A stretch of DNA of 37,547 nucleotides, taken from Candidatus Kapaibacterium sp. Lineage in GTDB: Bacteria; Bacteroidota; Ignavibacteria; Kapaibacteriales; Kapaibacteriaceae. The notes beneath the pieces are model-generated. The model was not told the DNA's origin, did not search any database, and saw only the letters and a program-made list of their open reading frames with translations. The DNA lies in NCBI GenBank assembly GCA_030833725.1, contig JAURGP010000020.1, forward strand, positions 1 through 37,547, read 5' to 3'. Shown one piece after another: positions 11,219 through 35,822 of the stretch (the stretch's first letter is position 1; each line of letters starts with the position of its first letter). The position numbers and the translations under genes were made by a program.

Positions 11219-11805
11219 CGCAGGTTGATCACTGTCCACCCCGTTGGGGGAACATAGGAAAACGTCGAGGCTGCTATCGTAGGATTACGAAGCAGCCTCG
11301 TGACGTTCCAGACAGACTCAACACCCGACTCCGAGACGCTGATCGACGTGATGGTGCCCTTGGCATTCAGAGCGATGTCGGCGTGCGTCACGCCAGCGAT
11401 GGTGGCTGAAGGGTCAGGTGGAAGGAGTCGGATCACCGTGGTGGGGTGCGTGCGCAGAACGGTTGGTACGTACACGTTCATCAAGACGAAGAACACGCGA
11501 TCAATCGACATGCTCTCTGCGTTTGGCTGATACCGGTTGACAATCACCGTTGTTGTTGCCGATTGGACGTTCCACACCGTGGTCGCGTCGCAGATGAACA
11601 ACCGGTCGGACACCTCGATACGGTACTTGCCACCTTTCTGCGCCCGAACTCTGCCGCGCATTCCCTGAGATTCGAACGACACATCAACCGATTTCAGGGA
11701 ACCGTACCTCGATCGAAAGGTGTCGATGACTGTTGATGATTGCTGAGCAACGGCGGATACCGATGCTATCACGGCGCAGGCAAGAGCGAGCATCAAACGT
11801 GGCAT
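11215..11805 (-). CDS. LolA-like outer-membrane lipoprotein carrier family protein
   Basis: A 196-residue protein with a signal peptide (MPRLMLALACAVIASVSAVAQ), so periplasmic. The body has the single-domain half-barrel pattern of the LolA family: an N-terminal helix (VIDTFRSRYGSLKSVDVSFES), then alternating strands such as GRVRAQKGGKYRIEVSDRLFICD and TTVWNV, ending in SYVPPTGWTVINLR. LolA carries lipoproteins from the inner to the outer membrane; this copy could do that or bind another lipid. It lies six bases after the DUF3108 gene in the same direction, so the two are probably cotranscribed. Its stop (11217-11215) overlaps the stop of the convergent surface-protein gene. Family placement is fairly good, exact substrate unknown. 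Confidence 0.75.
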   Translation of the reverse strand: MPRLMLALACAVIASVSAVAQQSSTVIDTFRSRYGSLKSVDVSFESQGMRGRVRAQKGGKYRIEVSDRLFICDATTVWNVQSATTTVIVNRYQPNAESMSIDRVFFVLMNVYVPTVLRTHPTTVIRLLPPDPSATIAGVTHADIALNAKGTITSISVSESGVESVWNVTRLLRNPTIAASTFSYVPPTGWTVINLR

Positions 11806-14700: not shown

Positions 14701-15399
14701 GTGATAGCAGCACTTATCATCCTTGCTCTCGGAAGTTCTCCCTCCGGATCTCCCTCCTCCGACACACTACAGCTGCGCGCCGACCAAGCTGAGCGCGCAG
14801 CAGATTCTCTGCGAGCGGAATGGGATCTGCTGTGGAAACGGAGCGATAGTCTCCGTATCGAGTCGATGCTACTGCGCATGAAGAGCAATCAGTTGCGCAA
14901 GCAGGCCGCGGCGTTGCGGGCCGAGATCCAGGATACAACACCACCAACTCCCTCCAGCGACGAGTTGATCATGGCCTCCGTGATGGCCCGTGCAGCAGCC
15001 GTGCGAGGAGGGAAGCAGCGATCAGGCCAAACGCTGAGTGACACCATCACTGCCGAGGTGATGAAGGTAGATCCCGACGAGGGGATTGCATCGTACTATG
15101 CCGATGCCTTTCATGGAAAGAAGACCTCCAGTGGCGAGGTCTTTAACATGCACGATAGCACGTGCGCCCATCGGTGGTTGCCGTTTGGAACACGCGTGCG
15201 CGTCACGAATCTGGACAATGGCAAAGAAGTCATCGTACGTGTCAACGACCGCGGTCCGTTCCATCACGGACGACTCATCGACATGTCCAAGGGGGCAGCA
15301 CACGCCTTGGGGATGATCCGAAACGGCACGGCTCGCGTGCGCATCGAAGTGGTACTAGCCCCCTCCCCGGAGGATGATTCTACAGAAACGGAACCTTAG
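14701..15399 (+). CDS. rlpA: RlpA-like double-psi beta-barrel protein
   Basis: A 232-residue envelope protein. A short hydrophobic leader ([20 protein letters not shown] start) is followed by a heptad-rich coiled coil (about 24-80: [18 protein letters not shown]...). The C-terminal double-psi barrel is at 118-222: [60 protein letters not shown]. Asp in VNDRGPF and His in FHGKKT are the residues used by RlpA lytic transglycosylases that cut peptidoglycan strands lacking stem peptides. No SPOR domain is present; the coiled coil replaces it, so septal targeting is not assured. It follows manC by 25 bases, and its last 20 bases overlap the end of the convergent gcvT gene. Confidence 0.87.
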
Positions 15400-16471
15400 C
15401 CACCTCGGCAGCAAACGTGGTACCTCGGGCTGCAATCTCGATCGCTGTACCTGGTTCCTTGTGCTCTACTGTAACGTAGCCCATGCCAATACCTGTCCCG
15501 AGGCCCGGCGAGTGCGAGCCACTGGTCACCTTACCAATCACTGCTCCTCCGGAAACGATGTCGTAGCCGGGACGGGGAATGAGTTTCTCGGACTTCATCA
15601 CGAAGCCAACCAACCGGCGTGTAGGTCCGGCATCCTTGGCAGCCTGGATGGCTTCTGAACCGTTGAAGACACCCTTCTTGAGCTTCGTAATCCAACCAAG
15701 GCCTGCCTCGATGGGATTGGTCGTTTCGTCGATATCGTTGCCGTAAAGGCAGTAGCCTTTTTCCAGACGGAGTGAGTCCCTCGCACCAAGTCCGATCCAG
15801 GCGATGCCGTGTTCGGCTCCCGCCGACCACAGTGCATCAACAACCTGCGCGGCAATGGTCTCGTCGCCCTTAAAGTAGAGCTCGAAACCTAACTCACCGG
15901 TGTATCCAGTGCGCGAGATGATCATCGGGACTCCTGCCAGCGCTCCCGTACGGAAGGTGTAGAACTCCACCTCGCTGAGGTTGACGTCTGTAAGCTTCTG
16001 CAGAACGTCCAGGCTCTTCGGACCCTGGACAGCCAGCAGGTGCGTCTCATCGCTGTCATTCACGATCCGAGCATCTGGAAACTGAGTGGCGTTTTCGGCC
16101 ACCCAAGCCCAGTCCTTGTCGATGTTTGCACCGTTGACCACCAGCATGTAGTGATCGTCTCCGAGGCGGTACACGAGAAGGTCGTCTACGATGCCTCCGT
16201 TCAAGCGACACATCGCTGAATACTGAGCCTGACCAATGGTAAGCTGCGAGGCATTGTTTACGGTGAGTTGCTGTACGAGGTCTAACGCCTGCGGGCCGGA
16301 TACCATGAACTCACCCATGTGCGACACATCAAACACACCCACACCGGTCCGTACAGTGCGATGTTCTTCGATGATACCAGTGGGATACTGAATCGGCATC
16401 TCGAAGCCTGCAAAGTGCACCATCTTGGCGCCAGCGGCTATGTGGAGGGAGTGAAAGGCGGTTTTTTTCAT
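15380..16471 (-). CDS. gcvT: Glycine cleavage system T protein (aminomethyltransferase)
   Basis: A 363-residue cytosolic enzyme that transfers the aminomethyl carbon from the lipoyl H protein to tetrahydrofolate, releasing ammonia. It has the family start [27 protein letters not shown], the [11 protein letters not shown] motif with the catalytic Asp region, [48 protein letters not shown] and the C-terminal [21 protein letters not shown]. The length equals the usual one. The ATG at 16471 is chosen because an extension to 16540 would add unrelated residues. No glycine riboswitch is recognisable in the 47 bases between the start and the divergent promoter at 16518. It overlaps rlpA tail to tail by 20 bases. 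No other gcv gene is in the window. Confidence 0.96.
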
Positions 16472-16517: not shown

Positions 16518-16548
16518 TTGACAACACCGGACCACTGCACTACTTTTG
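16518..16548 (+). promoter_or_regulatory. Plus-strand promoter, TTG-N20-TACTTTTG
   Basis: TTG (16518-16520), exactly 20 bases, then TACTTTTG (16541-16548) match the Bacteroidota vegetative promoter TTTG-N19/21-TAnnTTTG. The rpsT promoter in this window has the same geometry. A sigma-70 style reading (TTGACA-17-TACTTT) is also possible. It points away from gcvT into a stretch with no plus-strand gene that ends at a strong terminator. Confidence 0.65.
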
Positions 16549-16553
16549 GCGTG

Positions 16554-16672
16554 GCTACTGCTCAACGGGACATTGACTGTAGCTAACCTTGTCTGGTGGG
16601 ACGTGGCATAACGGGGGACGTGAAAACTCCGTTATGGACGACTCGGCTCCTCGAGCCGAGTCGTTTTTTTTT
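16554..16672 (+). ncRNA. Candidate small RNA, about 119 nt
   Basis: Promoter and terminator on the same strand bracket about 119 bases with no credible reading frame, lying between two genes on the other strand. The predicted RNA folds simply. A 5' stem pairs GCTAC with GTAGC. A central hairpin pairs CATAACGGGG (16607-16616) with CTCCGTTATG (16627-16636) around loop GACGTGAAAA. The terminator hairpin follows. The octamer GGGACGTG occurs twice (16598-16605 and 16615-16622), once before the central hairpin and once partly in its loop, where it could act as a pairing region. It does not fit 6S, SRP, tmRNA or a glycine riboswitch as far as I can judge. Both the start and the existence of the RNA are inferred. 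Confidence 0.5.
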
Positions 16673-17102
16673 CGAGCAGCTCCTGAGGTTGAAACACCTC
16701 ACGGATTTCCTGTTCCACCGTTCGAAACTCATGGTACCGGTCCTGATCACGCAGAAAGCTGGCCATGATTTCCAGATGCCATGGCGGCAGCAGCGTTACG
16801 TGCACCTTGTCGCTCAGGTTGAACGACGGATAGTACGACGCCACAACGCCTGTAACGCCGTCCATGCACGTGTGAATGAAGCTGGCGACGCCTTCGTCCT
16901 GCGTTGCTTCTACAAGGATGTGCACGTGATCCTCCCGCACACAGCTCTCGGTGTAGATGCACAGGGTTTCGGTAGCAGCCTGCATGACGACGTCCATGAT
17001 TTCTCGTCGCGCAAGCCGGGGAATGCGCATGCTGGTTGAGGCTGGCAACAACATCACGTGCAGACCGATTCCGCGCATGTTGCCGTTGGATGAAGTTGTC
17101 AT
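16632..17102 (-). CDS. Y1/HUH transposase-like (IS200/REP-associated) protein, apparently lacking the catalytic Tyr
   Basis: A 156-residue protein of the IS200/TnpA_REP family. The single-strand-nuclease HUH motif is His 59-Val-His 61 in CVREDHVHILVEA, after the usual beta-helix-beta core (GIGLHVMLLP, IMDVVMQAATETLCIY). In this family the nucleophile Tyr lies in a YIxxQ helix followed by an E-rich FEEEY segment. The matching segment here reads FLRDQ (116-120) then TVEQEIREVF, so Phe 116 stands where Tyr is expected. GAGGAG six bases before the ATG at 17102 is a strong ribosome site, suggesting the gene is expressed. The last ten codons run through the plus-strand terminator hairpin. There is no TnpB and no visible element end, so a domesticated or REP-type role is possible. 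Confidence 0.75.
   Translation of the reverse strand: MTTSSNGNMRGIGLHVMLLPASTSMRIPRLARREIMDVVMQAATETLCIYTESCVREDHVHILVEATQDEGVASFIHTCMDGVTGVVASYYPSFNLSDKVHVTLLPPWHLEIMASFLRDQDRYHEFRTVEQEIREVFQPQELLEKKTTRLEEPSRP
16639..16672 (+). terminator. Strong intrinsic terminator of the small RNA
   Basis: An 11-bp perfect stem (CGACTCGGCTC / GAGCCGAGTCG) with a 3-base loop is followed directly by nine T. On the minus strand no T run follows, so it ends plus-strand transcription only. Confidence 0.88.
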
Positions 17103-35787: not shown

Positions 35788-35822
35788 AAGCCGATCAACA
35801 CCACGGTGTTGATCGGCTTTTT
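35788..35822 (+). terminator. Intrinsic terminator after tRNA-Leu
   Basis: AAGCCGATCAACACC pairs with GGTGTTGATCGGCTT around a tiny loop, ending in five T. It begins seven bases after the tRNA. Confidence 0.88.

Follow-up and report, generated by a model that had tools for sequence, protein, structure and literature searches.

A candidate regulatory small RNA gene beside gcvT with a G-rich core kept in six genomes of one Kapabacteria family

Does the stretch between gcvT and a small HUH gene in Candidatus Kapaibacterium sp. encode an RNA of its own, and how might such an RNA work? The first-pass annotation of this DNA had proposed a new small RNA (sRNA) here, and our analysis of the window (the whole stretch of 37,547 nt) and of related genomes supports the proposal, the candidate being kept at the gcvT-side locus in six genomes. 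The stretch beside gcvT, a gene of glycine metabolism, very probably encodes a regulatory sRNA that had not been described before, because promoter, folded ends and a G-rich core are all kept at one chromosomal place in these six species. Judged from the DNA, it is highly probable that the locus is a transcribed RNA gene.

Table 1. Features of the candidate sRNA locus, its neighbours and RNA B (positions refer to the window unless a contig is named).
Feature	Position	Strand	Basis or remark
Candidate sRNA locus, promoter to T-run	16518-16672	+	Candidatus Kapaibacterium sp. (genome G000)
Putative promoter: TTGACA (−33 type), N20 counted from TTG, TACTTTTG (−7 type; 16541-16548)	16518-16548	+	exact pattern
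Predicted sRNA body, about 124 nt	16549-16672	+	homologs, fold z, no conserved ORF
5′ hairpin, loop CGGGACA	16552-16585	+	MFE fold
G-rich conserved core UCUGGUGGGACGUGG, probable pairing site	16592-16606	+	invariant run across six homologs
Central 10-bp hairpin, second GGGACGUG within arm and loop	16607-16636	+	fold
Intrinsic terminator, 11-13 bp stem and T9	16637-16672	+	terminator scan, compensatory changes
gcvT, aminomethyltransferase, divergent neighbour	15380-16471 (start 16471)	-	Pfam GCV_T, 2.5e-95
HUH gene (Y1, IS200-like / RAYT-like), convergent neighbour	16632-17102	-	Pfam Y1_Tnp, 3.7e-05
RNA B, C-rich candidate sRNA, divergent from pyrF, unannotated	G000:C32:58984-59116	+	L248/L185; homologs L243-L261

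The locus has its own promoter and its own intrinsic terminator on the same strand, and no other plus-strand gene lies between them. The promoter was found as the first-pass annotation had described it, with TTG at 16518-16520, a spacer of 20 nt and the second box at 16541-16548. A search of the 37.5-kb window for TTG-N20-TANNTTTG, the strict form of the pattern, gave two occurrences vs 0.11 expected from shuffles. The second of them lies upstream of rpsT, which alone within the window shares this geometry, as had been pointed out. By its sequence, the putative promoter is of the Bacteroidota type and of the housekeeping type. The 5′ end of the sRNA was placed a few bases past the −7 box and the 3′ end at the T-run. 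The hairpin described earlier on the promoter's strand was confirmed to have 11 G/C-rich pairs (13 with the flanking G-U and A-T pairs), a CTC loop and T9 at 16664-16672; a stringent terminator scan of the window returned this terminator and one near 35790, and no others. It had also been stated that no credible gene lies in between and that both neighbours are on the other strand. This stands with one correction, since the minus-strand HUH ORF crosses the terminator antisense and the 3′ end of the sRNA therefore overlaps it. A cis-acting riboswitch or leader was rejected, as the gene downstream is on the opposite strand and the T9 terminator is strong.

Homologs were found in six genomes from four genera of one family (G000, G002, G005, G009, G010 and G011), three of the six belonging to one genus. 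A DNA search covering 40 genomes gave a single match beyond the own genome, in G002 of the same genus. The aligned block, 75% identical, spans exactly from the promoter to the last T, vs 50% and 56% identity in the 100-nt flanks. In this alignment both promoter boxes are kept and the spacer has diverged, conservation extends, with one indel, over a long block that takes in the core and the central hairpin, and the terminator stem has changed on both sides. The homolog in G010, a member of another genus, was found by reading upstream of gcvT across the family, and that in G005 by a motif scan. A covariance model built from the first four homologs returned G011 (E 8e-8) and G009 (E 1e-5). A model match in G001 C27 (E 3e-6) was judged by inspection to be a terminator or coding sequence of another gene, and weaker matches in G002 C12, G006, G016, G018 and G019 to be terminators or coding sequence; none of these was counted. 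Similar promoter boxes are present in G005, G009 and G010, the last reading TTGAC..TACTACATTTG and having its own terminator, and the boxes of G011 are degenerate.

The homologs sit at the same locus, flanked by gcvT(-DUF4199) on one side and a downstream gene on the other. The sRNA of G009 also adjoins gcvT; in G005 and G009 a DUF4199 gene stands between gcvT and the sRNA, and in G011 an ORF resembling DUF4199 lies upstream of the sRNA in the same arrangement. The HUH gene is the same neighbour in G002 and G005. The ORF lists of G009, G010 and G011 hold no HUH ORF downstream of the sRNA, which indicates that the sRNA does not require the HUH gene as a partner. These arrangements bear on a reading in which the locus acts in cis only, its promoter interfering with gcvT or its 3′ end being antisense to the tail of the HUH gene. 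Some 50 nt do separate the promoter from the start of gcvT, which is on the other strand, and the terminator is antisense to the HUH ORF. However, with a DUF4199 gene intervening in two genomes, the HUH ORF missing from three ORF lists and the core kept regardless, we consider such a role very unlikely.

In three species of the genus the small HUH gene itself (Y1, RAYT-like) has kept its position (window 16632-17102 and L003 1923-2369, both on the minus strand, and L002), and it resembles a domesticated gene more than a mobile one.

The presence of this RAYT-like Y1 gene beside the locus in three genomes would also fit the view that there is no gene here, but a chance promoter next to a conserved terminator or DNA element, such as a REP-like element belonging to the HUH transposase. 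A REP element of a RAYT would be expected in many copies and was rejected, as the sRNA is single copy in its own genome. Moreover, the sRNA is present in G009, G010 and G011 without the Y1 gene, and its promoter boxes, core and compensated stems are all kept. The no-gene view appears extremely improbable.

Against shuffles the fold scored a z of −4.8, and the bare transcript −5.2. The central 10-bp hairpin (16607-16636) and the twice-present octamer of the first-pass annotation were both recovered, GGGACGTG being present at 16598-16605 and 16615-16622. A third variant of the octamer, GGGACAT, is located at 16567-16573 in the loop of the 5′ hairpin, which is absent from that annotation and re-forms with different letters in relatives (loop GGGGACA in G002, a loop with GGGUGGGAUC in G005). 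The emphasis on two octamers held only in part. One core, UGGUGGGAC(GUGG), is invariant, UGGUGGGAC being the longest invariant run in the six homologs and usually followed by GUGG, but the second octamer varies among relatives. The double octamer was rejected as a signature, since the same spaced octamers in other genomes are repeats or coding-type sequence. A tandem array whose repeat unit contains GGGGCACGA-N-ACATCGTGCCC was observed in G016:C70 near 7111 (L037).

The predicted pairing of the core varies from species to species, and for G000 and G002 RNAfold puts the core into a weak hairpin. Since the core stays the same where its predicted pairing changes, the constraint appears to lie on the sequence, as an antisense seed or a protein site. 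Each of the six homologs has a central hairpin, whose letters differ except between G000 and G002, and in the six-sequence alignment from core to terminator 9 of the 12 terminator pairs show at least one double compensatory change. It had been proposed that relatives not keeping the promoter or the stems would speak against the sRNA; this check was passed, as the six genomes from four genera keep the sRNA near gcvT, with the terminator compensated and the central hairpin re-made. No ORF shared among the homologs was found.

Searched at the gathering threshold, Rfam gave no family (6S, SRP, tmRNA, RNase P, riboswitches and McaS included), and up to E=5 nothing overlapped the window's own sRNA and only chance-level matches appeared. 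This bears out the earlier remark that the RNA matches no known family. Only the G002 homolog had a sub-threshold McaS match, of 28.1 of 42 bits. The candidate is, as far as its sequence tells, a new small-RNA family of limited range, with six genomes found. Small RNAs have received little study in this uncultured lineage, and a literature search combining Kapabacteria and small RNA found no paper in the library searched. The locus provides one well-bounded sRNA family with a defined core, in bacteria where Hfq and CsrA were not found.

As to function, we somewhat favour an autonomous sRNA of about 124 nt acting in trans by pairing of its core. It would be transcribed from the housekeeping-type Bacteroidota promoter and end at its own terminator; the G-rich core UGGUGGGACGUGG would pair antisense with C-rich stretches of other RNAs, and the hairpins would provide a scaffold and protect the 3′ end. 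Hfq and CsrA are the two classic sRNA helpers. Models of both found nothing in the 23 family genomes (the Hfq search controls were positive), which suggests that the sRNA would work unaided or via another RNA-binding protein; on the same count an Hfq-dependent sRNA was rejected. CsrA was present in 13 of the 17 genomes sampled from other families of the order.

Exact 11-mer core matches were not clearly commoner than those of a reversed-pattern control. Pairing of the sRNA with the 43 start regions of the window gave none beyond chance after 43 tests, the best (start at 11805 on the minus strand, −26.8 kcal/mol) not being significant after multiple testing. The gcvT start was rejected as a target, nothing beyond chance being found in G000, G002, G005 or G009.

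GibS and FopS of Bacteroides are comparable to the candidate in being intergenic, trans-acting sRNAs of Bacteroidota with their own terminator and a conserved seed, without obvious Hfq or ProQ (PMC7366714, PMC11697453). Bacteroides has no obvious Hfq or ProQ (PMC7366714), and the FopS sRNAs have canonical sigma-ABfr promoters (PMC11697453). Their conserved segment, however, is at the 5′ end, whereas here it is internal, G-rich and placed between hairpins; the comparison is one of descriptions, not of sequences.

Another way to read the repeated GGGAC motifs is that the sRNA titrates an RNA-binding protein in the manner of CsrB or RsmZ. G000, G002, G009 and G011 each have at least three GG(G)AC sites within loops or close to them, and repeated GGA-containing loops are also found in the CsrA-titrating CsrB, CsrC, RsmY and RsmZ. 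However, CsrA, which is known to read such motifs, was found in none of the 23 family genomes, for which reason a CsrB/RsmZ-type RNA with CsrA titration was rejected. The candidate further differs in having no Rfam match and in its motif, GGGAC(GUG), and the number of motifs varies, with one in G010. Protein titration therefore seems rather improbable.

When its own genome was searched at E≤10, the sRNA matched only one place besides the inverted repeat of its terminator, a 14-nt stretch at C32:59045 on the opposite strand of RNA B. RNA B is conserved in every one of the six members of the genus, and a covariance model located it in 19 of the 23 family genomes. It has a 9-bp stem and a terminator with a conserved UCCCUCCC loop and T-run, and no match to it was found in Rfam. 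A promoter of the form TGTAAC-N16-18-GTC, which we take to be of the ECF type, is present in 12 of the 19 genomes (chance 0.0014 per 150 nt). RNA B would add a second, more widely kept sRNA, presumably under an ECF-type promoter. The T-run, most G-U wobbles and the presumed ECF-type promoter are all on the RNA B strand, which speaks against a paralog of the sRNA encoded on the opposite strand, although one G-U wobble event points the other way.

The match raises the question whether the sRNA sponges RNA B or is itself silenced by it. Staphylococcal RsaI and other sRNAs take part in sRNA-sRNA or sponge networks. The idea of a G-rich and a C-rich sRNA pairing together is shared with them, the pairing here being only predicted, and the phylum, sequence and promoter are different. 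The complementarity is perfect over 14 nt in G000; the core is complementary to the RNA B linker CACGUCNCACCAGA and the 5′ loop to the RNA B terminator loop, the sites being colinear. At the loop, 8 of 8 positions match in G002 and 7 of 8 in both G000 and G005; one double change turns C-G into U-A. Duplex energies without masking were uninformative; with masking, the duplex in G000 beat 397 of 400 shuffles, 3 being as good. However, shuffles were as good in 32, 70 and 323 of 400 cases in G002, G005 and G009, respectively, and a cross table of duplexes showed cognate pairs to be no better than non-cognate ones. The match itself has an E of about 4, so that several such would be expected by chance. 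No RNA B was detected in two genomes that have the sRNA, G010 and G011, and other genomes in which the sRNA was not found do have RNA B. RNA B was rejected as an obligate partner, co-occurrence and cognate pairing both failing. Because of the weak pairing in relatives, the lack of cognate preference and the incomplete co-occurrence, the sponge is kept as a rival and not as a verdict, and we regard it as unlikely. Less likely again is that the G-rich sRNA, under its housekeeping promoter, would be the dedicated sponge of an ECF-driven RNA B, forming an Hfq-free two-RNA stress circuit in Kapabacteria.

In G010, a C-rich element at C168:32848-32863 on the minus strand (L199) has a strong terminator and a tandem GUCCCACCACCACAC, is complementary to the core of that genome and adjoins a run of N.
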